Assembly (NCBI RefSeq): GCF_000403645.1
Contig: NC_021313.1
Coordinates: 310,001-374,000 of the forward strand
Length of the DNA: 64,000 nucleotides
From: Salinarchaeum sp. Harcht-Bsk1
GTDB taxonomy: Archaea; Halobacteriota; Halobacteria; Halobacteriales; Salinarchaeaceae
Reading direction: 5' to 3'
Shown here piece after piece: positions 47,352 to 63,832 of the stretch; position 1 is the first letter of the stretch; the number at the start of each line of letters is the position of its first letter. The notes under the pieces were generated by a model. The model ran no database searches, was not told the DNA's origin, and saw only the letters and a program-made list of their open reading frames with translations. The translations under genes and the position numbers were made by a program.

Positions 47352-48050
47352 CTACGATTCGTCGGCACCGACGGTTGGCGTGATTTCGCCGCCCGTCGTG
47401 GCCATCGCGGTCCGGTTGTTGACCGTCACCGTGAACGTCGCCCCGTCGGCCTGTTCGATGAGCACGCTCCCACCGCTGCCGGGTTCGCCATCGTAGACAC
47501 GGCAGGTCATGCGTATGTGAACGTCCGTCTCCTGCGTGCCACCGTCGGAGTCGGCCTCAAATACCGAGACGTCGTACTTGTTGGCAGAGTCGAGCAGGTT
47601 GCTGCCACTGCCAGCGATCGCGTAGCTCTGCTGTCCGTAGGGTGCGCCGTACTTGAACTGGAAGATGCCGTCGGTCCCAGTGTCTTGGGTGTAATCGTTG
47701 GAACCGCCCCAGTTAGCGCCGAGTTCGCCGTAGTCGGAACCGTGGCTCCGCCAGTTGCTCCAGCCACCACCCGTGTTGACGCGGGATTCGACCCGGTACC
47801 AGCCGTAGGTGGCTTCCTCGTCGAGTCCGTCCCACTCGAAGCGGAGTCGGCCGCCGAAGGCCACGTACTGGATCTCGCCGTCGTCGGTCGTAACCGCGCT
47901 CGGATTCGACGCCTCGAGGCTGGTGTCGGCTGCTGCAACCGTTCCGCTCAAGGCGAACAGACCCAGGCCGCCGACTACCCCTGCAGCGCCCGCACCGCCG
48001 ACTCCCTTGATCACTGTCCGTCGATCGAGCCGTGGTATGTCGGTCGACAT
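47352..48050 (-). CDS. Tat-exported protein of unknown function
   Basis: 232 aa. MSTDIPRLDRRTVIKGVGGA...VGGLGLFALSGTVAAA is a clear Tat signal without a lipobox. The mature part is rich in Gly, Ser, Asn and Asp with predicted beta structure (LRFEWDGLDEEATYGWYRVE; DVHIRMTCRVYDGE; TFTVTVNNRT). A single Cys. Not recognised; a soluble extracellular beta-sandwich is possible. It sits directly beside the duplicated tRNA-His 3' end. A TATA-like tattac on the minus strand (about 48081) lies about 30 nt upstream of the start. Confidence 0.75.
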   Translation of the reverse strand: MSTDIPRLDRRTVIKGVGGAGAAGVVGGLGLFALSGTVAAADTSLEASNPSAVTTDDGEIQYVAFGGRLRFEWDGLDEEATYGWYRVESRVNTGGGWSNWRSHGSDYGELGANWGGSNDYTQDTGTDGIFQFKYGAPYGQQSYAIAGSGSNLLDSANKYDVSVFEADSDGGTQETDVHIRMTCRVYDGEPGSGGSVLIEQADGATFTVTVNNRTAMATTGGEITPTVGADES

Positions 48051-48771: not shown

Positions 48772-49473
48772 CTAATCGGACGTCCCGGCAGCGACGGCCT
48801 CCTCGGTCTCGGAGGCTGCCTCCTCAGCAGCGGCTTCGGCCTTCTCTGCCGCTTCCTTCTTCGCCTTGATCTTCTTCATCCGGAAGATCTCCTCGCGTTC
48901 CTGTTCCTCGAGCTTCTGCTCGATGTACTCCTTGTTCTCGTGGAGTTCGGGCAGGAGCTTGAACTCCAGGGCGTTGACGCGGCGCTTGGTCTTCTCGATC
49001 TCGTCGAGCATCTTCTTCATCGCCGTCTCGACCTCTGCGGCGAGGATGATCGACTCGATCAGTTCTTCGTAGGCTGCCGCAGTTTCGTCGATGCGCGCGC
49101 TAGTGCCGAGGACGCCGTAGCCGCGCTGGTCGAGACTCTTCTGGACGCTGGAGGACTCGATCTGGGGCACGACGACGCCCATGATGTTCTTGGCCTCGGT
49201 CGTGATCTCCGGGTGGTCCTTGAGCGCGGACGCCGCCCCACGGACCGCGACGTCGCCCTCCATGGCGCGAGCCATGTCGATGGTCTGCTGGGCCTGCTCG
49301 TAGTCGGCCTCGACGTTCTCCCGAACGGACTGGGCCTGATCGAGGATCTCCTTGAACTCCATGATCAGCCCGTCGCGCTTCTTCTCGAGGGTGTCGTGCC
49401 CACGCTCGGAGAGCTCGATCCGGTCCTCAATCTCCATGAGGTTCTTCCGGGTGGGTTTGACGTCCTTGGCCAT
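48772..49473 (-). CDS. atpD: A-type ATP synthase subunit D
   Basis: 233 aa from [11 protein letters not shown] at 49473. Central-stalk coiled coil: [20 protein letters not shown] at the N-terminus and [20 protein letters not shown] near residue 160. The C-terminal extension is Lys/Ala/Glu-rich (about residues 195-233), typical of haloarchaea. It should rotate with F and C to couple proton flow to the A3B3 head. It is separated from atpB by about 4.3 kb holding four unrelated genes, so it probably needs its own promoter. Confidence 0.95.
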
Positions 49474-49582
49474 TGGCGGAGCCTTGCCCACGGATGGGGG
49501 TAGTCCTTACGATTGGTGGCGGGGGACGTGTGGCTCTGGAGGGTCGTAGGAACGGACCGCGTGGAAAGGAAGGCCGCGGCGA

Positions 49583-50263
49583 TCAGCGAGCGGATCGCCG
49601 GCGCACCGCAAGCAGTCCGCCCGCGACGAGGAGCGCGATCCCGGGGAGGACCGCCGAGGGTGCCAGCTGCCCGTCGCCACCGCCGCCGGACGTCGTCATC
49701 GTCACTTCAAATCCGGAGAGATCCGCTTCCGCCGACCACGTCGCTTGACCGTCCGCCTGCTCCGTGGGCGTCACCGACGTGTCGACGATCTCCTCGCCCT
49801 CCGGGGCCCGCACGACGAGGGGTCGGCCCGAATCGAAGCCGTCGTCAAAGGGCGCGGAGAGCACGAGTTCGTCGCCGTCAATGGCAGCGAGATTCGTCCA
49901 GGTCGCTGAGAGCCGGACGACCCCGACGCCGTCGCGTCGGTCGAACGTCGCCTCGACGTCCTGGATCGCCATCTCGCGGCCGGTCTCGTTGCTCACGCTT
50001 TCTGCGACGCCCCAGAGTCGGGCCTCGTATCTGGTGGAGAGGTTCTCCCGCTCGTCCTCGAGGTTGGCGAAGGATTGCTGCTGGGCGTCGTCTTCGAGGT
50101 CGTACGTGTAGACGGTGGTGACGATGGCGTCACCGTCCGCCTGCAAGTCGACGTTCACCCGCTCCTGAGGACGGTCCTGAGCAACCGCACCCGTCGCCCC
50201 GACCAGCGCGATCAGCGTTGCCACCGCGGCGAGCGTCGCGGCGGCGCGTAGCGTCGCTCGCAT
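49583..50263 (-). CDS. secreted protein with C-terminal membrane anchor (DUF7345-like)
   Basis: 226 aa. N-terminal signal (ATLAAVATLIALVGATGAVA), an extracytoplasmic beta-rich domain (VNVDLQADGDAIVTTVYTYD; RYEARLWGVAESVSN; VVRLSATWTNLAAIDGDEL), and a C-terminal hydrophobic segment with basic end (LPGIALLVAGGLLAVRRRSAR). The domain resembles the external part of the regulator at 52006 (EEFEARMTGVVESANG; WGVVTYTFRWEGFAATEGDGL). The start overlaps the stop of the upstream gene (TGATG), so the two are translationally coupled. Function unknown. Confidence 0.8.
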   Translation of the reverse strand: MRATLRAAATLAAVATLIALVGATGAVAQDRPQERVNVDLQADGDAIVTTVYTYDLEDDAQQQSFANLEDERENLSTRYEARLWGVAESVSNETGREMAIQDVEATFDRRDGVGVVRLSATWTNLAAIDGDELVLSAPFDDGFDSGRPLVVRAPEGEEIVDTSVTPTEQADGQATWSAEADLSGFEVTMTTSGGGGDGQLAPSAVLPGIALLVAGGLLAVRRRSAR

Positions 50264-51627
50264 CAGTCGTCGCTGTCGTCGCCGTCGTCCTCATCACTGT
50301 CCGAGTCGTCCGACGAGTCGTCGCTGTCGTCGCCGTCGTCCTCATCACTGTCCGAGTCGTCCGACGAGTCGTCGCTGTCGTCGCCGTCGTCCTCATCACT
50401 GCCCGAGTCGTCCGACGAGTCGTCGCTGTCGTCGCCCTCGAACTCCATCTCGAGTTCGCCCTCGCTGTCGCCGTGCTCGACCTCGACGTCGAACCCGTCT
50501 TCGCCGACCTGCACCGTCACGGTGCCGTTCTCGTCGGTTGTGCCGCCCGCACCGTCGTCTACCTCGACGTCGGCGCCAGCGACGGGGTTACCCTCGGCGT
50601 CGGTGACGCGGATCGTCACGGTGTCGTCCGTGGCGGGGTCGCCGTCGACCACGGTGATGGTGAGCTCGCCCTCGGACTCGTCGTCTTCCTCGTCGTCACC
50701 GTCGTCCTCGGCTTCGCGCTCGATCTCCTCCTCCAGCGAGAAGACCGCGTTCTCGCGAGCGTCGACGCTCACCTCTGCTTCCCCGCTCGAGGACGGGCCC
50801 TGGTACTCGAATTCGAACTCGTAGTACCCGTCGTCCTCGGTCTCGGCCTCGTCGAGGGTCCAGGTCCCGTTGTCGTCAGGCGAGGACAGCGCCGCCTCGG
50901 CCGTGGCCTGCGCCTCGCTCCGGTTCACCTCGAAGGTACCGTGCTCGGGCTCCTCGCCCTCGAACCCGCGGGAGTACTCGCCGTCCTCGGACTCGACCTC
51001 GACTTCGAGGCCGTTCTCGGTCTCGACGGAGAACTCGCCGTCGGACTGCCCGGTGAACTGCGCGAGCAGTGCGGCGGTGCCGCTTCCGGAGACCGACCGG
51101 AGCTGCTGACGGGCCTCCGCGACTTCGGCGGCGTTGTAGCCGGCAGCCTCCAGCGCGTCGGGCGAGGTCTGGGCCGCGGCGACCGAGACGCGGTCGAACC
51201 CGTTCTGGATGGCGTCAGCGCGGGCGTGGAGTACCGCGAGCCGTTGCCCGTACTCGGCCGCCGATAGTTCACCCTCGTCGTAGGCCATCGTCGCCGCCTC
51301 GTAGTCCGCGGCGATCTGGCCCGCCCGGTCCTGCAGCGTCGCGGAGAGGTTCGCGATCGCGGCCGCCCGCTCGGAGTCGTTCTCCGCGTCGAGCTCCGCC
51401 TCGAGCGACCCGACCTCCACGTCGTGGCGGACCTCCTCGTCGGTCACCTGGATGACCGTCGCGAGCTGCGCGCCAGTCGAGGCGTTGGTGGTCGCCGCAC
51501 CGTCGTTCGCCGAACTGTCCTGCGTGCCGACGCCCACATCAGCCGCACCCACGACGCCCACGATCGGGGCGAGCGCCACGAGTGCGACCAGCGCGAGCAG
51601 CACGGTGGTCGAGTTGCGCACTGACAT
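50263..51627 (-). CDS. secreted protein with helical module, Ig-like domain and Asp/Ser repeat tail (DUF7096-like)
   Basis: 454 aa. A signal sequence (VLLALVALVALAPIVGVVGA) leads into an alpha-helical module (about 50-170: ERAAAIANLSATLQDRAGQI, ...EGELSAAEYGQRLAVLHARA), then acidic regions, an Ig-like segment (NPVAGADVEVDDGAGGTTDE) and a Ser/Asp tail made of a 17-residue repeat (three copies). No C-terminal anchor is seen; attachment may be via the coupled downstream protein. TATA (tttac on the minus strand, 51653-51658) lies about 28 nt upstream of the start, and a phased repeat array just beyond it. A helical plus Ig-like relative is at 62559-63809. Confidence 0.8.
   Translation of the reverse strand: MSVRNSTTVLLALVALVALAPIVGVVGAADVGVGTQDSSANDGAATTNASTGAQLATVIQVTDEEVRHDVEVGSLEAELDAENDSERAAAIANLSATLQDRAGQIAADYEAATMAYDEGELSAAEYGQRLAVLHARADAIQNGFDRVSVAAAQTSPDALEAAGYNAAEVAEARQQLRSVSGSGTAALLAQFTGQSDGEFSVETENGLEVEVESEDGEYSRGFEGEEPEHGTFEVNRSEAQATAEAALSSPDDNGTWTLDEAETEDDGYYEFEFEYQGPSSSGEAEVSVDARENAVFSLEEEIEREAEDDGDDEEDDESEGELTITVVDGDPATDDTVTIRVTDAEGNPVAGADVEVDDGAGGTTDENGTVTVQVGEDGFDVEVEHGDSEGELEMEFEGDDSDDSSDDSGSDEDDGDDSDDSSDDSDSDEDDGDDSDDSSDDSDSDEDDGDDSDD
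50265..50432. repeat. 51-nt tandem repeat in the DUF7096-like gene
   Basis: Units start at 50265, 50316 and 50367, with a partial fourth from 50418, each beginning agtcgtcgctgtcgtcgccg. They differ at one base (tcactgtcc/tcactgccc). They encode the 17-residue Ser/Asp/Glu repeat DSDEDDGDDSDDSSDD plus one residue at the C-terminus. The length is a multiple of three, so copy-number change would alter tail length without frameshift. Confidence 0.9.
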
Positions 51628-51652
51628 CGATCACTCCTCTCCCCCGCTCCCT

Positions 51653-51658
51653 CGTAAA
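51653..51658 (-). promoter_or_regulatory. TATA element for the secreted-protein operon
   Basis: gtaaag on the plus strand reads CTTTAC on the minus strand, about 28 nt upstream of the ATG at 51627; leaderless transcription is expected. Confidence 0.55.
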
Positions 51659-51677
51659 GGGGGAAGACCCTCCCGGC

Positions 51678-51756
51678 CCGTTGCGGACCGTTGCGAACAG
51701 TTGTGGCTCGATTTTGGACCGTTGCACGGCTCGGCCGAACCGTTGCAGTCCGTTGT
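51678..51756. promoter_or_regulatory. phased CCGTTGC repeat array (candidate operator)
   Basis: CCGTTGC occurs at 51678, 51688, 51719 and 51740, with variants CAGTTGT at 51698 and CCGTTGT at 51750; a further TCGTTGC is at 51798. Start-to-start distances are 10, 10, 21, 21 and 10 bp, so sites lie on one face of the helix. The array begins about 20 bp beyond the TATA of the DUF7096-like gene, where an activator or repressor would act. It lies about 220-300 bp upstream of the divergent regulator gene. Confidence 0.7.
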
Positions 51757-52005
51757 GCGGGTGAAATCGAGGGGCCGCACCGGGGCTGGACTCGCACTCG
51801 TTGCGATTCGATTACACCCGCATGCACCGACCGAACGATCGTGAGCCGTCGAACCGTCGGAGTCCCGCTCGCGCTCACCGTTCGGCGCTCGCCCGCGAAA
51901 CGCGACCGCGACCCACCGCCCAACCGCGACGCGACACACAGCCCGACCACGACGCGCTGGCCGGGACCGGCCCCTTTATCAACGAGCCGCCGATTCCTAC
52001 CGCTA
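51757..52005. other. remainder of the divergent intergenic region
   Basis: No gene seen. A single TCGTTGC (51798-51804) and the TATA tttatc at 51975-51980, about 28 nt upstream of the regulator start at 52006, are the only elements noted. Frames crossing this stretch are GC-rich shadows with Arg-rich composition. Confidence 0.5.
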
Positions 52006-53169
52006 ATGCGACGCGGGGGTCCCAGGCTGCAAACCGTTCCGGCGTGCGCGGTCGTCCTCCTGTTGCTCGTGGCGCTCGGCGGTCCCGTCGCTGGCGGTTC
52101 CCTCGCTAGTGGTTCCGTCGCTGGTCTTCCGGCCGTCGGTACCGCTGCCGACGGTTCCACGCTCCCGCAGCACTCGCCAGCCTCCACGCTGGCCGCCCAA
52201 TCGGACGACGTCTCCTTCGTTTCCCTCCAGGACCAGCCGGAGGCCGACGCGACCGTGACGCGGATCGTCCTCCACGAGAACGGCTCCGCGATCTGGACGA
52301 TCGAGGTCCGCACGCGGCTCACCAGCGCCGAGGAGGTCGCGGCCTACGAGTCCTTCCAGGAGCGGTTCCGCTCGAACCGGAGCCGGTTCCGCGAGGAGTT
52401 CGAGGCGCGGATGACCGGCGTCGTGGAGAGCGCGAACGGCTCCCTCGACCGGCCGATGCGTGCGACGGCGTTCTCCGCGTCGACCAGCATCGAGGAGGCG
52501 CCCCAGCGGTGGGGCGTCGTCACGTACACCTTCCGGTGGGAGGGCTTCGCGGCGACGGAGGGGGACGGGCTGGTCGTCGGGGACGTCTTCGGTGGCAACT
52601 TCTTCATCGAGGAGAACAGCGTCCTCGAGTTCGTCCTCCCCGAGGGCCACGAGGTCGAGACCGTCTCGCCGTCCCCCGATAGCCGATCCGGCGAAACCAT
52701 GCAGTGGGAGGGTCCGGCCAGCTTCGGAGACGGCCAGCCCCGGGTTGTGACGACCACCGGCGACGACGGCCTCTCGCTGGTGTGGATTCTCGTCGCCGCG
52801 ATCGTTGTCCTGGCCGCACTCCTCGCACTCGCGATCGCGTGGCGCCGCGGGAGCATCGGCGGGCGGGCGGACGAGTCCGAAACTGCCGCAGCGTCCGCCG
52901 GCGACGAGCCCGAAGGCGGCGACGCCACGGCCGCAGAGCCCGGACCGCTGACCGACGAGGATCGCGTTCGGGAGGTGCTCGAGGCCCACGGCGGCCGGTG
53001 CAAGCAGTCCCAGATCGTCGAGGAGCTCGACTGGTCGAAGTCAAAGACCTCGCGGGTGCTCTCCCGGATGGCGGAGGAGAACCGGGTCGAGAAGCTCCGG
53101 ATCGGGCGCGAGAACGTGATCGAGCTGCCCGGGAAGGAGCGAGCGCCGACGGCAGACTTCGAAGAGTGA
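52006..53169 (+). CDS. membrane-spanning winged-HTH transcriptional regulator (DUF7345/DUF7343-like)
   Basis: 387 aa. A signal segment (VPACAVVLLLLVALGGPVAG), an external domain (about 65-245), one transmembrane helix (LVWILVAAIVVLAALLALAI, about 265-285), a cytoplasmic Glu/Asp/Ala linker and a C-terminal winged helix (VREVLEAHGGRCKQSQIVEE, then SKTSRVLSRMAEENRVEKLR). This is a one-component sensor in which signal domain and DNA-binding domain are joined through the membrane. The external domain resembles the secreted protein at 49583-50263. The TATA at 51975 supports the start. Likely controls the divergent operon via the CCGTTGC array (inference). Confidence 0.85.
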   Translation: MRRGGPRLQTVPACAVVLLLLVALGGPVAGGSLASGSVAGLPAVGTAADGSTLPQHSPASTLAAQSDDVSFVSLQDQPEADATVTRIVLHENGSAIWTIEVRTRLTSAEEVAAYESFQERFRSNRSRFREEFEARMTGVVESANGSLDRPMRATAFSASTSIEEAPQRWGVVTYTFRWEGFAATEGDGLVVGDVFGGNFFIEENSVLEFVLPEGHEVETVSPSPDSRSGETMQWEGPASFGDGQPRVVTTTGDDGLSLVWILVAAIVVLAALLALAIAWRRGSIGGRADESETAAASAGDEPEGGDATAAEPGPLTDEDRVREVLEAHGGRCKQSQIVEELDWSKSKTSRVLSRMAEENRVEKLRIGRENVIELPGKERAPTADFEE

Positions 53170-53193
53170 CGACCCGGTCGTCGCCCGGATCGC

Positions 53194-53409
53194 TTATCGG
53201 CGCCGCGACGTCGGTTCGCAGTCAGGGAGCCGCGAGTTGCTGTAGTCGAAGACGAGGTAGCCGAGCGGCCCGGCGAGCGCGAGCGAGGCGGCGGACTCGA
53301 CGAAGAGGTCGCTCCCGACGAGGAAGCGGAACACGACGAAATTGATCACCACCCACAGGAGGAGCGTGTAGGTGACGTACTCGCGCAGCGCCTCCGTTCG
53401 GCTTCGCAT
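53194..53409 (-). CDS. small two-helix membrane protein
   Basis: 71 aa from the second Met (53409), which is about 27 nt from the TATA on the minus strand (actataat, 53433-53440). Two hydrophobic segments (YVTYTLLLWVVINFVVFRFL and LFVESAASLALAGPLGYLVF) and a polar, Arg-ending C-terminus. Not recognised beyond haloarchaeal conservation. It is convergent with the regulator gene. Confidence 0.68.
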   Translation of the reverse strand: MRSRTEALREYVTYTLLLWVVINFVVFRFLVGSDLFVESAASLALAGPLGYLVFDYSNSRLPDCEPTSRRR

Positions 53410-53412
53410 CAC

Positions 53413-53723
53413 GCGAACGATTCACAGGGACCGTATTATAGTTTACTCTCGAGTAGCTCGCAGGAAAAACGGCATTATCAATCGTCCCCCACGGAGCTGG
53501 CTGGCGATTCTATCGGCTGATTTTTCCTTCCGACGAACTGGCCGCCGAACGGCCCGATGCCGGTCGACGGCGGGCCGCACCCGACGCCGGTGACTCGGCG
53601 ACCGACTGGCGGGCGTCGACGTCCACGCTATCGATCGGTGTCGCTGAAGAGAATCGACTCGAGGACGATCGCCGTCAGCATACGATCGAAACGAAAAAAA
53701 AAAAACCGACGACGGCGAACTCC
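53413..53723. other. intergenic region between atpB and the small membrane gene
   Basis: Contains the TATA for the minus gene at 53433-53440 and the T-run terminator of atpB at 53694-53705. No coding frame is supported. Confidence 0.55.
53694..53705 (-). terminator. T12 terminator after atpB
   Basis: Twelve consecutive A on the plus strand, i.e. T12 on the transcribed minus strand, 19 nt after the atpB stop. It probably ends the atpH-B transcript and isolates atpD. Confidence 0.75.
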
Positions 53724-55136
53724 TCAGTCCGCGGCGACTTCCTCGGCTGCGGACTCCTCGTAGTACTCGTCGATGAGCTCCTCGTCGATCCGGTTGAGCT
53801 CGTCGCGAGGCAACATCGAGAGCAGCTCCCAGCCGATGGTGAGCGTCTCCTCGATGTCGCGGTCAGTCGTGAAGCCCTGCTGGACGAACTCCTCCTCGAA
53901 GCGGTCCGCGAAGTCGAGGAAGCGGTTGTCCCGTTCGCTCAGTGCTTCGCGACCGACGATGTTCACGAGGTCGCGCAGGTCCTCGCCCTCCGCGTACGCC
54001 GCGTAGAGCTGGTCGGACACGTCGCCGTGGTCCTCACGGGTGAGGCCCTCGCCGATCCCGTCGTCCATCAGCCGTGAGAGGCTGGGCAAGACGTTGACCG
54101 GGGGCTCGATGCCCTGAGAGTTCAGGTCGGGGTCGACGATGATCTGCCCCTCCGTGATGTACCCGGTGAGGTCCGGGATCGGGTGGGTGATGTCGTCGGA
54201 CGGCATCGTGAGGATCGGAATCTGCGTGACAGACCCGTCCTCCCCATCGATCCGGCCCGCGCGCTCGTACAGCTGGGCGAGGTCGGTGTACATGTACCCG
54301 GGGTAGCCCCGGCGACCCGGGACCTCCTCGCGGGCGGCACCGATCTCGCGGAGCGCTTCACAGTAGTTCGTCATGTCCGTGAGGATGACGAGGACGTGGT
54401 AGTCCTTGTCGAAGGCCAGGTACTCCGCCGTGGTGAGCGCGAGTCGCGGCGTGACCGTCCGTTCGACTGCGGGGTCGTCCGCGAGGTTCATGAAGACGAC
54501 AGAGCGCTCGAGTGCCCCCGTGCGCTCGAAGTCCTGCATGAACTCGTTGGCCTCCTCCTGAGTGATCCCCATCGCGCCGAAGATCACTGCGAACTCGGAG
54601 TCGCCGTCACCCTCGCCGTCGGCCTCCTCCGGCACGCTGGCCTGCCGCGCGACCTGAAGCGCCAGGTCGTTGTGGGGCTGACCGGAGCTGGAGAAGATCG
54701 GCAGCTTCTGGCCGCGAACCAGCGTGTTCATGCCGTCGATGGCGGACACGCCGGTCTGGATGAACTCCTCGGGGTACTCCCGGGAGTACGGGTTGATCGC
54801 CTCGCCGACGATGTCGCGGCGCTCGTCGGGGACGATGTCGGGGCCGCCGTCGATCGGTCGGCCGGAACCGTCGAGCACCCGTCCGAGGAGGTCCTCGGTG
54901 ACGGGCATCTTCATGGTCTCGCCGAGGAAGCGAACGGAGGCCTTGCGGTTGATGCCCTCCGTGCCCTCGAACACCTGGATCGCCACGAGGTCCGTGCTGC
55001 TCTCGAGGACCTGGCCGCGCTTGGTCTCGCCTTCCGGTGTCTCGATCTCGACGATCTCGTCGTAGCCGATCGGCTCGTCGACCTCCGCGAAGACCAGCGG
55101 TCCGCTGATCTCGGTGATCGTCTGGTATTCCTTCAT
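53724..55136 (-). CDS. atpB: A-type ATP synthase subunit B
   Basis: 470 aa from [16 protein letters not shown] at 55136. The regulatory, non-catalytic head subunit: the P-loop position reads [18 protein letters not shown], not a Walker [29 protein letters not shown] and [14 protein letters not shown] are conserved. The start codon is 2 nt upstream of the atpA stop region (next gene in the operon), and the long frame to 55520 is not used. Confidence 0.95.
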
Positions 55137-55138
55137 GG

Positions 55139-56908
<1,770 letters not shown>

Positions 56909-56914
56909 AGTGTG

Positions 56915-57232
56915 TTAGTCCATCAGGTCGATACCGATGGCTCGTTTGATCTGGTCGCGCAGCGCGCCGCCGCCCGCATCACCGCCGATGGTGACGACGA
57001 CCGGTTCGACGCTCGTCTCGACGGCTTCCCGCACGTCCCGCGAGAGGTACTCGAGGTCCTCCTGGTGCATGACGACGATGCCGACGCCGTCGTCGGCGAG
57101 CGTGTCCTCGACGGCGTCGTCGAGGTCGGACTCCTTCTTGTCGTCGGGGACGTTCGCGAACCGTCGAATGCCAGCGAGCCGGAAGCCGGTCGTGAACTCG
57201 GGGCTGCCGATCACAGCGATCTCCTGGCTCAT
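56915..57232 (-). CDS. atpF: A-type ATP synthase subunit F
   Basis: 105 aa. EIAVIGSPEFTTGFRLAGIR is the diagnostic N-terminus, then DDGVGIVVMHQEDLEYL. Central-stalk subunit that binds D. Overlaps atpC by 4 nt (start within the atpC stop region) and ends 6 nt before atpA. Confidence 0.94.
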   Translation of the reverse strand: MSQEIAVIGSPEFTTGFRLAGIRRFANVPDDKKESDLDDAVEDTLADDGVGIVVMHQEDLEYLSRDVREAVETSVEPVVVTIGGDAGGGALRDQIKRAIGIDLMD

Positions 57233-58308
57233 AGGATCACCAGCTCGTCTTCGATCTGTTGCTGGTCGAGGCCGACCTCCTTGCCCCGGGCGATCGCGCG
57301 GATGTTCTCGACCTCGCGAGTCTTCGCGAGGACGTAGGACATGACCGCCGTGATCGATACGGGGTAGACGTGTGAGAGGTGGTCAGTGTATTCGAGCAGC
57401 GCCGCGTCGAGCGCGTGTTCGAACTGGATGAGGCTGTCGGCGTCTCGCAGCCCGTCGAGAGCTGTTGAGAGCTGGTCGCCGTAGTCACTCTCGCGGAGCA
57501 ACTCGACGAGCTGGTCGAGGTCGCCCCCGACCGCACGGAGTTCGTCAGCGCCGAACAGCTCGCCGCCCTCGATTGCGTACTCTTCCGGATCGATGTTTGC
57601 GCCACTGCGGGCGACCCGCAGTGCGTTCCGCGCGTTGAGGAAGTCGATCTCGGCGACGAGGAACTCCTCGTACAGCGCAGTCGGCCCCTCGCGCTGCTGG
57701 CCCTTCTCGACGCCGGCCAGCAGGTCGGAGTAGAACGCGCGGTCGACGGCATTCTCGAGTGGAACCAGCACGTCACGGCTCTCGAACTCGTCGTAGGCCG
57801 CTTCGAGTGGTTCGCCGAAGATCGTTCCCTCGAGCGTCTCGACGATTTCCTCGATCGAGTCGGCTTCGACGATCCGGTCGAGGGTCGCGTCGTCGAGTGC
57901 GCCGGCCTGTATCAGGTCGACCCTGATCTCGTCGGGCGACGCGCCCGAGTAGACGCCACGGATGGCGGTTTTTACGTTCCAGGCGTCATAGCGCCGCAGG
58001 AACTTCGCGATCAGCTCGTGGAGTTCGCCCTCCGCCCACCGAAGGAGGTCGTCGAAGTGCTTCGCGAGGTTTCGGTTGAGTGCGTACTCGATGAGGTCCA
58101 CCCCGTCGTGGCGGGACGCGAGTGCGTTGATCTCCGTCTCGTACTCGGACTCCTCCATGAAGCGGGCGATGCCGCCAGGGCCCATGCGGACGAGCTTCCG
58201 ATAGTCCTCGTCGTCGAACAGCGCCGCACGACGCGACCGGACGCGGGCGTTGACGAACTCGGGGTTCGAGCTGCCCGTGGAGTCGCGAGTCGTGCTGGTT
58301 GGACTCAT
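57229..58308 (-). CDS. atpC: A-type ATP synthase subunit C
   Basis: 359 aa. Three repeated helical domains of the V/A-type C (d) subunit: VNARVRSRRAALFDDEDYRK at the N-terminus, AEGELHELIAKFLRRYDAWN, and ISITAVMSYVLAKTREVENI near the end. It sits as a socket between the central stalk and the membrane rotor. Overlaps atpE by 4 nt. Confidence 0.93.
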   Translation of the reverse strand: MSPTSTTRDSTGSSNPEFVNARVRSRRAALFDDEDYRKLVRMGPGGIARFMEESEYETEINALASRHDGVDLIEYALNRNLAKHFDDLLRWAEGELHELIAKFLRRYDAWNVKTAIRGVYSGASPDEIRVDLIQAGALDDATLDRIVEADSIEEIVETLEGTIFGEPLEAAYDEFESRDVLVPLENAVDRAFYSDLLAGVEKGQQREGPTALYEEFLVAEIDFLNARNALRVARSGANIDPEEYAIEGGELFGADELRAVGGDLDQLVELLRESDYGDQLSTALDGLRDADSLIQFEHALDAALLEYTDHLSHVYPVSITAVMSYVLAKTREVENIRAIARGKEVGLDQQQIEDELVIL

Positions 58309-58886
58309 TGTTCGAACAGTCGTTCGCTGACGGTCTGTAGGTTGTCCTCCCAGACGGCCTCGAGGATCGAATCGAACGTGTTGTTGATGCGAACTCTCGA
58401 AGCGTCGCTCTCGACGACCACGCCACCGAGGCAGTCGTACTCGCCCGCGTATGCGAAGCCGTCGTACTCCGTACAGAGTTCGGAGACGAGTGCCTCGTCG
58501 TCAGCGCGTGCGTAGACCTCGACGTCGTCGTCGACGTCGAGTTCGTTCGCTGCCGATTCGAGTAGCGCGGCGGTCAGCTCCTCGCGGCGTTCGCCCTCGA
58601 GCTCCGCCAGCTCGGCCTCGACGCGGTCGTGGACCCGCTCGAGGAGCTCTCGTCGGGCTTCGAGACGCTCCTGCTTGGCCTCGAGCTGGGCTGCGGAGAT
58701 GCGCTGCTCGCGCTCTTGCTCGATCTCGCGCTCGACCGACGCCTCGGCTTCCTCGCGGATCCGATCGGCGTCCTCGCGGGCCGCTTCGAGGAGCTCCTCC
58801 GCGCGCTCCTCGGCCTCCTCTTCGATCTCCTCGGCGCGCGCGTGGGCTTGCCCCTTGATGTCTTCGACGACCGTGTCAAGACTCAT
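58305..58886 (-). CDS. atpE: A-type ATP synthase subunit E
   Basis: 193 aa. Long N-terminal coiled coil (AHARAEEIEEEAEERAEELL...) and a globular C-terminal domain (TAALLESAANELDVDDD; YDCLGGVVVESDASRVRINN). Part of the peripheral stalk with subunit H (61370-61702). Confidence 0.94.
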   Translation of the reverse strand: MSLDTVVEDIKGQAHARAEEIEEEAEERAEELLEAAREDADRIREEAEASVEREIEQEREQRISAAQLEAKQERLEARRELLERVHDRVEAELAELEGERREELTAALLESAANELDVDDDVEVYARADDEALVSELCTEYDGFAYAGEYDCLGGVVVESDASRVRINNTFDSILEAVWEDNLQTVSERLFEQ

Positions 58887-58902
58887 TTGTGGAAGAGGAC
58901 GG

Positions 58903-59163
58903 CTATACGACGAAGATGGTGACCAGCGCGATGATGATCAGCGTCTCCGGAAGTGCCGTGAAGATCAGCCCAGGGACGAGGTTGTCGTCGTCCTCGGCGA
59001 CGGCACCGACGGCGGCCGACCCGATCCCACGCTGGGCGTACCCGGTACCGATCGCGGCCAGGCCGACGGCAATGGCCGCTGCACCGGAGTTGTTCAGCAT
59101 GAGCTTCTGGATGCCTTCCTGCTGCAGTACGATACTCGCCGTGTCTGCTGCAATGTCGAACAT
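58903..59163 (-). CDS. atpK: A-type ATP synthase membrane rotor subunit K
   Basis: 86 aa. A short N-terminal lead and two membrane helices (SGAAAIAVGLAAIGTGYAQR and PGLIFTALPETLIIIALVTI), with the ion-carrying Glu73 in ALPETLII. One hairpin, so a single carboxylate per monomer, unlike duplicated K subunits. Named K in haloarchaeal usage; the proteolipid c ring. Confidence 0.94.
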   Translation of the reverse strand: MFDIAADTASIVLQQEGIQKLMLNNSGAAAIAVGLAAIGTGYAQRGIGSAAVGAVAEDDDNLVPGLIFTALPETLIIIALVTIFVV

Positions 59164-59175
59164 TGTTGAGTTTAG

Positions 59176-61383
59176 TTAATCCTCTGTGGTGTTGTCTCGA
59201 TCGTAACCGAACGGGTCGAATCTCTTCCCACTGCCCTCATAAAACTTCCCAAAGAACTCGACGTACTCCAGGCGAACCGCCTGAATCATGGCGCTCACGC
59301 CGATCGCGAGTACGACGAGATGGCCGATTAGCAGCACGAGCAGCCCGCCGATCTGGCCGGCGAGGCCGGTGTGGTAGAGCCCGGAGAACACCATCTCCGC
59401 GCCCTCGTGCGTCTCGACGTAGTGGGGGCCGTGATCGATGAGGTAGTGGTAGGCACCTTTCTCGTCCTGATACGCGCCAAAGTACAGCATGTTCACGACC
59501 AGTGCCATCCCGGCCTTCGAGAGCAGTACTGCAGTTAGCCGGGTGTAGGATAGCGTGTGCGCGAACGGCTGTGCGACCTCCGGCAGCTCGTAGACGGGAC
59601 CCACGATCAGCAGGGCGATCCCGAGTGCGAGCAGCCCGAGTCCGAGGAAGCCCACCGTGGGCGAGAATCCTGCGAACCCGAACGCGAACGGCTCGCCGTC
59701 GAAGGTGGCGAAGAGGAGCTCCGGCTTGGTGCCCTCCAGGTGAGTGCTGAACACCCACAGCCAGATGCCCGTCAGCATCGCGATCCACGAACCCGATTCG
59801 AGGACGGCGTCCGTCAGGCCGTGGAGCGTGTAGTTGTCGACGAAGTCGAGCGCCCACCCGATCGTGAGGTGGACCCAGCCGGCGAGGACCGCGACGACGA
59901 GCCAGCCCGTTGCCCACTCGCCGTAGCTCAGTCCCTTCCGGAGCGGCGGGTGGCCGCCCCAGATCCACTCGCCGAGCTGGTGAAGCCCGAATATCTCGCC
60001 GTAGAACACGCCGAAGGCGATCGTGAGAATGCCGGCCCAGACGACGACCACGCCGAACTGCTGGATGGCGTCGCTGTCGAACCGGCGCATGGCGAACAGC
60101 CCTATCAGGGCGTAAATCACGCCGTAGCCGACGTCCCCGATCATGAAGCCGAAGAAGACGGGGAACGTCAGGAAGAGCACGATCGTGGGGTCGAGTTCGC
60201 CGTAGTTCGGGCGACCGACGGCCTGGACGAGCACCTCGAACGGCGTCGTCGGTTCGGGGTTGCGCTGGACGGTCGGCGGGTCGTCCCGAACGGTGACGAC
60301 ACCGCCGTCCGCCGCGACTTGCTCGTCGGATTCCTCGGCCGCGTCTGCCGTCGTTTCCGCACCGGCGGACGCGCCGGCGGTTGCCACACCGTCGCCGCCG
60401 GACTCCTCGGCGACGTCGTCGTGGTGAGCGACCTCACCGTGGCGGTCGTACGCCGCACGCTCCAGTTCTTCGAACTCGACGTGGTCACCGACCGCGTCGC
60501 GGATGGATGCCTCGACCGTCTCGAGTTCGGCCGTAGGGATCCACCCCTCGGCTACGAAGCTGTTCTCCGTCGTTGCGAAGCGTAGCGGTGCCTCGCCCTT
60601 CTGGACCTGGATCGTCAGGTACTCCTCTGCAGCGAGGAGGAAGCCGCCAACCTCGAGTTTCTGCTCCCGGAGTTCGGCGTTGAGGCTCTCGATTTCCGCT
60701 TCGAGTCGACGCTTCTCCGTACGGAGATTCTCCACGGCGTCCTCGGGGGAGCCCTCCGAGTCGGGTACCTCGATGCGGGTGAAGTCGACGCCGACGAGTG
60801 GATCCGCGGCGGCGTCCTCCATGTCGACCCCCTCTGCAGGGGCGACTGCTGCTGCGACGACCCCGTCCCCGCCGAACAGTTCGACGGCGCGGACGTCGTC
60901 GGACGCCTCGTACGCCGACCGGATCGAATCCTCGTCCCCCTCACCGACCACGACTTCGATTGCGTCGTACCCGGTGAGCAGGTCGAGGTCGATTCCGAGT
61001 CGGGCAAAGGGCGCCATCGAGCCGATTCGCTCCTCGACGGTCCGAAGCTCCTGACGGAGCTCCTGGCGGCGGTCGTCCAGATCGTTGACGGACGACCTGA
61101 CCTCTGCGAGGCGCTCGCCGAGCGTCGACGGGTCGAATCCGCGCTCGGGTGGCAGCTCCTCGTCGTCCAGGTCGAGCGTACTCTCGAGTCCGCGGACGGT
61201 GACGAGCCGCTCGGAGGCCTCGTCGGCTCCCTCGCTTGGGTCGCCGTTGTCGAAGGCCTCCCAGGACCCGTCGTAGTCCGTGAGGTGAACCCGGTTCAGC
61301 TCGTGCAGGGCGTCGATGACCTCGTCCAAGATGGACTTGGAGCCGGTCACCGAGACCTTGCTCATTCGCTCAGGTCTGAGCAT
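59176..61383 (-). CDS. atpI: A-type ATP synthase membrane subunit I (a)
   Basis: 735 aa. N-terminal cytosolic part (about 1-400) with coiled coils (VNDLDDRRQELRQELRTVEE; EKRRLEAEIESLNAELREQK) and an Ala/Thr/Glu-rich low-complexity stretch before the membrane domain. About eight membrane segments follow, including FGVFYGEIFGL, LSKAGMALVVNMLYFG and LVVLAIGVSAMIQAVRLEYVEFFGKF, with the conserved Arg in QAVRLEYVEFF. It carries the half-channels for ions. Overlaps atpH by 14 nt. Confidence 0.94.
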   Translation of the reverse strand: MLRPERMSKVSVTGSKSILDEVIDALHELNRVHLTDYDGSWEAFDNGDPSEGADEASERLVTVRGLESTLDLDDEELPPERGFDPSTLGERLAEVRSSVNDLDDRRQELRQELRTVEERIGSMAPFARLGIDLDLLTGYDAIEVVVGEGDEDSIRSAYEASDDVRAVELFGGDGVVAAAVAPAEGVDMEDAAADPLVGVDFTRIEVPDSEGSPEDAVENLRTEKRRLEAEIESLNAELREQKLEVGGFLLAAEEYLTIQVQKGEAPLRFATTENSFVAEGWIPTAELETVEASIRDAVGDHVEFEELERAAYDRHGEVAHHDDVAEESGGDGVATAGASAGAETTADAAEESDEQVAADGGVVTVRDDPPTVQRNPEPTTPFEVLVQAVGRPNYGELDPTIVLFLTFPVFFGFMIGDVGYGVIYALIGLFAMRRFDSDAIQQFGVVVVWAGILTIAFGVFYGEIFGLHQLGEWIWGGHPPLRKGLSYGEWATGWLVVAVLAGWVHLTIGWALDFVDNYTLHGLTDAVLESGSWIAMLTGIWLWVFSTHLEGTKPELLFATFDGEPFAFGFAGFSPTVGFLGLGLLALGIALLIVGPVYELPEVAQPFAHTLSYTRLTAVLLSKAGMALVVNMLYFGAYQDEKGAYHYLIDHGPHYVETHEGAEMVFSGLYHTGLAGQIGGLLVLLIGHLVVLAIGVSAMIQAVRLEYVEFFGKFYEGSGKRFDPFGYDRDNTTED

Positions 61384-61702
61384 GCACCGCCGTCTCTACG
61401 AGTTCGAGGACGTCATCGACCACGTCGTCGAGGTGCTCTTCGGCGTCGGCAACGAGCTCCTCCCGGTTGGCGCGGCCGTCCTCGAGAATTTGTTCGCGTT
61501 CCTGTTCGATCTCCTCGCGGGCAGCCTCGAGTCGTCGTTCGCGCAGATCGCGCGCCTCCGTCTCCGCTTCTTCACGGATTTCCTCGGCACGCTCGCGGGC
61601 TTCCGCGAGGCGCTCCTCGCGATCAGCCTCGGCCTCCGCGACGATATCGTCGGCCTCCCGCTCGGCCTCCTTGACACGTTCGAGAACTTCTGGCCTCGGC
61701 AT
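61370..61702 (-). CDS. atpH: A-type ATP synthase subunit H
   Basis: 110 aa, almost entirely a charged coiled coil (VKEAEREADDIVAEAEADRE...). Pairs with E in the peripheral stalk. First gene of the operon atpH-I-K-E-C-F-A-B. A leader of 112 nt separates it from the divergent methyltransferase gene. Confidence 0.92.
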   Translation of the reverse strand: MPRPEVLERVKEAEREADDIVAEAEADREERLAEARERAEEIREEAETEARDLRERRLEAAREEIEQEREQILEDGRANREELVADAEEHLDDVVDDVLELVETAVHAQT

Positions 61703-62558: not shown

Positions 62559-63809
62559 TTACGCCCAGGTCACGGACACGCTCGCCGATGCGTCCCCCGT
62601 CGAAACCGATACGTCCGAGCCGTTTCGCGGGAGGACGACCCACGCCGTGCCGTCGGCGTTCGTCTCGCCCACGACGGTGCCCTCGACGGCGAGCGTTACG
62701 TTCGACGCTGGTTCTCCACCTTCGGTGACGGTCACGCGTGCGGGGCCGGTGTCGTACGTCGGCCGGACCGAGACGGTCAGATTCCCGGTTTCGTTCGTGC
62801 TGGCGGCGCCCACCGGAAGCGTCTCGTCGAGTGCCATCCGCTGGTACTCCCAGAAGACGTTCTCCGAGACGGCGTCGACGTAGCTACGGAGTGCGCCGTG
62901 TTCGTAATTCAGCGCACCCTCGCCGAGGACGAGATAGAACTGACCGGAGACGCCCTGGCCAACCGACCCGAAGTCGTAGTTGGACCGGTACACCGGGTAC
63001 AGCTCCTCGACCGTGAGATCGGCGACCTCCGTCGGTGAGATGCCGCGCTCGGAACCGCCCACGAGCAGGTCGCTCCGATATGCTTCGCGGTGGTACGTGT
63101 CACCGTCGATCGTCGACAGAACGGTTCCGTTGGCCGACGCGAACGCGTAGAGCCGCTGTGGGGAACTCGAACCCGTCATCGCGTCGCCGACCTGCTGTCG
63201 CACGGGCCCCCGGAGTGCGATGATGTCGCCCCGAAGCGTACCGAGTTCGATCGACGCATCTGACGCCGAGTATACGTCTGCGTGGCCGTCGCTCTGTGGA
63301 TCGATCGGGTCGATGTCGTCTGCCAACCGTTCGAGTTGTCGCGCCTCCTCGTCGATCGCCCGAAGTTCAGCGAGGAACGTCTGTGTGCTCATTCCACCTC
63401 TGAGATACGCTCTCCGTACTTCTTTTTCGCGTGCGTGGAGGCGCTCGATGGATCGGTTCATCCCGCTGACCGTCTCCGCGAGAAGCTGCTGACGTCGGGT
63501 ATCGTTGTCGGCCTGCGCTAGCTGCGCGTCGAGGAGGTACCGATCGTAAGCGCCGTCGAGACGACTTCCCGATCGATCGACCGAGGCGCGAACGTTCGTA
63601 TCGACCACCGTCGTTCCTGATCGCAGATCCCCCGGGAGAACGACGCGTTCGGGAAGCGCGAGATCGCCAGGCGCCGGCTGTGGCTGGACGTCCTGGGCCG
63701 TATCGTTCTGGCCCGCAGACTGGAGTCCAACCGCCCCAGCGCCCGTCACGATCAGTAGCGCTGCGAGGCAAAGTGCGAGGGGTAGGGAGAGCCGAGTGGA
63801 GGGCAGCAT
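62559..63809 (-). CDS. secreted protein with helical module and C-terminal Ig-like domain (DUF7094/DUF7096-like)
   Basis: 416 aa from the second Met (63809), since TATAG on the minus strand (63833-63838) is about 27 nt from it. Signal LPLALCLAALLIVTGAGAVG; a helical module (about 80-170: TRRQQLLAETVSGMNRSIER; LRGGMSTQTFLAELRAIDEE) resembling that of 50263-51627; a middle domain of unknown type (FYLVLGEGALNYEHG); and a final Ig-like segment (GNLTVSVRPTYDTGPARVTV). No lipobox and no clear C-terminal anchor. Exported by Sec, function unknown. Confidence 0.78.
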   Translation of the reverse strand: MLPSTRLSLPLALCLAALLIVTGAGAVGLQSAGQNDTAQDVQPQPAPGDLALPERVVLPGDLRSGTTVVDTNVRASVDRSGSRLDGAYDRYLLDAQLAQADNDTRRQQLLAETVSGMNRSIERLHAREKEVRRAYLRGGMSTQTFLAELRAIDEEARQLERLADDIDPIDPQSDGHADVYSASDASIELGTLRGDIIALRGPVRQQVGDAMTGSSSPQRLYAFASANGTVLSTIDGDTYHREAYRSDLLVGGSERGISPTEVADLTVEELYPVYRSNYDFGSVGQGVSGQFYLVLGEGALNYEHGALRSYVDAVSENVFWEYQRMALDETLPVGAASTNETGNLTVSVRPTYDTGPARVTVTEGGEPASNVTLAVEGTVVGETNADGTAWVVLPRNGSDVSVSTGDASASVSVTWA

Positions 63810-63832
63810 GGTCGGCACGTATGTAGACTCCC

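Follow-up and report, generated by a model that had tools for sequence, protein, structure and literature searches.

A transmembrane DUF7345-DUF7343 protein as the candidate regulator of a neighbouring secreted protein pair in haloarchaea

Introduction

The transfer of information from the cell surface to promoters is poorly known in archaea outside two-component systems. Proteins in which one membrane helix links an external domain to a DNA-binding one have a layout typical of sensors, and the kind is already known in haloarchaea, where membrane-anchored HTH proteins have been annotated. HVO_0306 and HVO_1944 of Haloferax volcanii carry the annotation “probable transmembrane glycoprotein/HTH domain protein”, HVO_0307, HVO_1944 and HVO_1945 are N-glycosylated, and HVO_0306 is reported as an O-glycoprotein candidate (PMC8241124). 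In our literature search, we found no report of a function, an operator or a three-gene module for proteins of the HVO_0306/HVO_1944 type, and no paper describing the gene pair, gene trio or repeat array considered here; searches on DUF7345, DUF4897, DUF7096 and DUF7343 returned no papers, and COG2512 only unrelated ones.

Here we analyse three genes (A, B and C) of Salinarchaeum sp. Harcht-Bsk1, located in a 64,000-nucleotide stretch of contig NC_021313.1 (hereafter, the window), in which C is divergent from B and A.

Results

The three open reading frames lie where the initial annotation had placed them (Table 1), and the overlap it described between B and A is present: the stop codon of B overlaps the start codon of A as TGATG (50261-50265), suggesting that the two genes are transcribed from one promoter.

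Table 1. Positions of the genes, protein domains and candidate regulatory sites in the window
Feature	Position	Strand	Description
A	49583..50263	-	secreted short DUF7345 protein; hydrophobic C-terminal tail + RRR; Pfam PF24036, 6e-22
B	50263..51627	-	secreted DUF7096-type protein: helical region 51-192, beta domains, Asp/Ser-rich tail; PF23379, AF2 model
51-bp tandem repeat	50265..50440	.	3.5 copies, 98% match, codes for acidic tail of B; TRF
TATA-like box of B	51654..51659	-	CTTTAC, 27-32 bp before B ATG; inferred from sequence
Candidate operator	51674..51755	-	phased direct repeats CAACGG(N4), B-strand reading
TATA-like box of C	51974..51979	+	CTTTAT, 27-32 bp before C ATG; inferred from sequence
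C	52006..53169	+	predicted transmembrane one-component regulator; ATG at 52006
External DUF7345 domain of C	52261..52647	+	residues 86-214; Pfam; pLDDT mostly above 90
Single membrane helix of C	52771..52851	+	residues 256-282; predicted
DUF7343 winged helix of C	52948..53130	+	residues 315-375; 2e-29; MarR/ArsR-type fold matches
Canonical-pair DUF7096-DUF7094-Fn3_arc member	62559..63818	-	divergent DUF7345-DUF7343 regulator starts just past window (G000:C1:373997)

The trio is inserted between atpB and atpD of an A-type ATP synthase gene run (window 48772-61702), as is the trio of a genome from another family (G119, locus L077). About 90 bp separate A from atpD, and the two may be co-transcribed. 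Window positions 47352-48050 encode a further secreted protein, which shows a weak match to a TAT signal and stays below the cut-off of every family.

The layout first described for C also stands, with a signal segment followed by DUF7345, the predicted membrane helix and the DUF7343 winged helix (PF24034, 101.5 bits against a gathering cut-off of 27.6). By prediction, C therefore combines in one protein the external sensor, membrane helix and DNA-binding domain that generally characterize a transmembrane one-component regulator. Its sensor domain was modelled at high confidence as strands and two long helices, and a fold search with C returned no convincing solved relative of that domain (best TM-scores below 0.5). 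The genome encodes three further DUF7345-DUF7343 regulators. CsmR was considered as a match for C and rejected, being small (13 kDa) and of another family.

DUF7345 (C residues 86-251; A) weakly resembles the Fenna-Matthews-Olson (FMO) bacteriochlorophyll protein in structure and sequence: the fold search gave an E value of 2e-8 but a TM-score of 0.17, and sequence profiles gave E 0.005 over one 37-residue stretch, with an hhalign probability of 15%. One FMO query sequence used in the last of these comparisons is identical to a solved chain in the database; the remaining FMO sequences were taken from database alignments. We regard this resemblance as a weak and unexplained lead only. DUF7345 also matches DUF4897 weakly.

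The sequence pattern reported initially as common to A and the external domain of C is a true family match. Both proteins match PF24036 (DUF7345) above its gathering cut-off of 27.5 (A, 78.6 bits, 6e-22; C, 98.2 bits, 6e-28), and family profiles of 17 A-type and 26 C-type proteins align over 205 columns with a probability of 99.9% and an E value of 5e-37. At the level of sequence profiles, this comparison excludes a lack of similarity between the two external domains, which the initial annotation had named as fatal to its proposal. In a phylogenetic tree, the A proteins form one clade (100/99), the C proteins of the trio type another (96/87), within which those of divergent trios make up a sub-clade, and the regulators of the two-gene form described below (“canonical”) a third (98/86). 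Since A is a single clade apart from all C, A is, as judged from sequence, an old separate lineage and not a recent broken copy of C; for the same reason, we rejected a recent duplication of the neighbouring C as the origin of A.

A had been described as secreted and anchored. The window's A retains a hydrophobic tail followed by RRR, but the canonical PGF-CTERM motif is absent from it. The PGF_CTERM model is matched by 12 of the 17 A-family members and finds no match at the C-terminus of the window's A, which by this motif falls outside the archaeosortase substrates and whose anchor is degenerate.

The match of B to PF23379 (DUF7096) is marginal (28.0 bits against a cut-off of 27), and 15 of 19 B-family members match this model at E<=0.01. 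B contains Ig/Fn3-like domains and repeats, and its tandem repeat (Table 1) bears out the repeat content ascribed to it. A fold search with the B model found no solved relative at E<=0.001.

Of the genomes sampled, 144 of 146 from the order and 20 of 60 from the phylum encode DUF7345. The near-universal arrangement is a divergent pair without A, in which a DUF7096 gene faces a DUF7345-DUF7343 gene; among the matches listed, this canonical pair occurs in 125 of the 128 Halobacteria genomes that have both. It typically lies between etfBA and the ATP synthase operon, and the canonical DUF7096 gene is often followed by a small pilin-like gene (for example L104:5576-6046, with a PF07790 N-terminal signal below cut-off). 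For H. volcanii, the locus numbers of idsA2 (HVO_0303), menG (HVO_0309) and the atp genes (HVO_0311-0317) (PMC8305020, PMC3828320) fit the canonical gene order, which puts HVO_0306/0307 in canonical synteny. By synteny, that is, locus order together with annotation, these two genes are probably the canonical pair, and HVO_0306 and HVO_1944 are expected to carry DUF7345 and DUF7343. The N-glycosylation found in H. volcanii fits an external sensor domain.

Short A proteins occur in a minority of genomes. B is directly upstream of A in 19 of the 21 short-A loci examined, and a C-type regulator lies within ~3 kb in 13, in divergent, co-directional and convergent orders. Among these 21 loci, C is divergent in this genome and in two others (G119 and G077) and mostly co-directional elsewhere. 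Nine named loci were found with the A profile, eight of them with all three genes. They extend the set to Haloferax marinum, where the order is divergent, and to Halosimplex, Halorientalis, Natronorubrum and others, where it is co-directional; L124, one of the nine, seems to duplicate the L091 contig. The expectation that the divergent trio is conserved across Halobacteria is thus borne out for the linkage of the three genes, but not for their divergent form, which is rare (this genome, G119, G077 and H. marinum); the co-directional C-B-A order is commoner. In several families, an argG-argH-lysX/argX-argC-argB-argD arginine operon follows directly after a co-directional C-B(-A) set (L078, L079, L080, L082, L083 and L098).

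Between B and C, the plus strand carries GTTG(C/T) from positions 51680, 51690, 51700, 51721, 51742 and 51752. At 27 loci, we analysed the region from -140 to -20 upstream of B (120 bases) for periodic repetition, assigning the start of B by a signal-peptide rule. Across 18 non-redundant loci, the combined Stouffer z at a lag of 10 was 10.2, a value that, like the other z values, overstates significance because loci of related genomes are not independent; further peaks were present at 20 and 31. The controls were 155 further upstream regions from the same set of loci, among them some miscalled coding sequence, which shows up as period 3; their mean lag-10 z was -0.14, and the maximum in 20,000 draws of 18 control regions was 3.45. 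These controls reject the idea that 10-bp spacing is a general trait of these genomes. In all four divergent loci, lag 10 is the strongest lag, and the region separating C from B contains the array, always in one orientation.

The repeat unit fitted to these loci is AAWCSG. In 14 of 16 loci, the last copy of this unit has its first base at -56 to -58 relative to the start codon of B, a position that is descriptive rather than an independent test because the unit was fitted on the same loci. The only zero-mismatch triple repeat in the genome is the one that separates B from C; the pattern was taken from that site, so the result speaks to uniqueness, not discovery. Repeats one helical turn apart suggest a protein that occupies neighbouring units along a single face of the DNA. 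Given the position of the array immediately ahead of the TATA region, C, if it is the protein bound there, is most likely an activator of B-A.

The canonical pairs have a different site. The interval from the TATA box to the start of canonical regulators contains a near-invariant, near-palindromic sequence, ATRGAAAGYRTTTTC (intergenic regions of L017-L046; G000:C1:373958 in this genome). This genome has it, with one mismatch, at the canonical regulator and at one other place. The lag-10 array was sought in canonical pairs and was not found, the only signal being at lag 20 (z 3.8). The presence of ATRGAAAGYRTTTTC and lack of a 10-bp lag in canonical pairs indicate that the operator is not common to the whole family.

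Discussion

Our preferred reading, to which we assign a probability of roughly 60%, is that C regulates B-A as a transmembrane one-component protein and does so via the candidate array. The DUF7345 domain of C would lie outside the cell, connected by one helix through the membrane to a winged helix inside, which would bind the phased 10-bp array beside the B-A core promoter and most likely activate the operon. B and A would be the output of the circuit and, probably, its extracellular arm. For contact with DUF7345, B would be the best candidate; A, in most cases a surface-anchored second copy of the sensor domain, could compete for the same ligand or present it. Gene linkage and the doubled domain suggest that B and A may report the state of the surface back to C; the signal, we would guess, is a cell-surface or lipid-related cue. 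Of the membrane-to-DNA module proposed initially, the anatomy, homology and gene linkage are upheld, and a dedicated array before the secreted pair is added, but that C senses the same ligand or partner as A is something that we still infer from the shared domain.

The array itself raises the question of what binds it. It is also present before B in seven of nine loci where no neighbouring C was found (group lag-10 z 6.4), so another protein or a distant C paralog could bind it. If the array were bound by another regulator, either a paralogous DUF7343 protein, of which the three additional DUF7345-DUF7343 regulators of this genome would be candidates, or an unrelated factor, then C would mainly control itself or distant genes, and the linkage of the three genes would reflect a shared extracellular complex. 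We consider this unlikely, as the array keeps its place and orientation between C and B in 4/4 divergent loci and the zero-mismatch site is unique in the genome. The gene neighbourhoods point to another explanation, in which the real target is the adjoining metabolic operon (ATP synthase, etfBA or arginine biosynthesis), with B and A as passengers or as sensors for it: the trio lies between atpB and atpD both here and in G119, etfBA and the ATP synthase operon flank canonical pairs, and co-directional trios often precede argG-argH. These metabolic neighbours, however, vary among loci while B-A stay, two loci (L114 and L116) keep the canonical pair without adjoining atp genes, and the array sits on the promoter of B, all of which makes a metabolic target distinctly improbable.

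We give slightly less credence still to B and A being structural surface or adhesion proteins, with C a tethered regulator that senses no ligand and DUF7345 an export or assembly module. The repeats and Ig/Fn3-like domains of B, the anchoring of A in most relatives, and glycosylation in Haloferax (PMC8241124) are consistent with such roles, but nearly every genome sampled has retained a DUF7345-DUF7343 protein encoded divergently from DUF7096, and the fusion of external domain, membrane helix and DNA-binding domain is typical of sensors.

Beyond this locus, we tentatively propose, at somewhat less than even odds, that these genes represent an undescribed, near-universal haloarchaeal surface-sensing system, composed of DUF7345 transmembrane regulators and dedicated secreted DUF7096 partners. 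Control would run via helically phased arrays whose spacing from the core promoter is constant, and the three-gene form would add an anchored DUF7345 protein as decoy or co-receptor. Almost all halobacterial genomes sampled carry the two-gene form, and, by synteny, its members are among the glycoproteins already detected in the proteome of a genetically tractable model. The repeat array provides a specific DNA site that is open to direct test, and several domains of unknown function are joined into one testable hypothesis of signalling from the cell surface to genes.

In bringing together an external sensor, one membrane helix and a DNA-binding winged helix in a single protein, C resembles ToxR and CadC of bacteria. 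C has the reverse order, however, with its external domain N-terminal and its DUF7343 winged helix C-terminal, and no OmpR/PhoB-type domain was detected in C up to E 1, which sets it apart from the ToxR/CadC group, defined by an N-terminal cytoplasmic OmpR/PhoB winged helix. ArnR and ArnR1 of Sulfolobus are, like C, archaeal membrane-anchored HTH regulators (of the archaellum); they differ from C in their N-terminal HTH and in belonging to another lineage with other targets (PMC13286277). Most A-family members share the PGF-CTERM signal with substrates of archaeosortase A, whereas the window's own A does not. C is also like HVO_0306 and HVO_1944, which, as annotated, have the layout described for C and are each accompanied by a next-numbered gene for a secreted glycoprotein (HVO_0307 and HVO_1945, respectively); relative to canonical regulators of this type, the window's C belongs to a separate clade.
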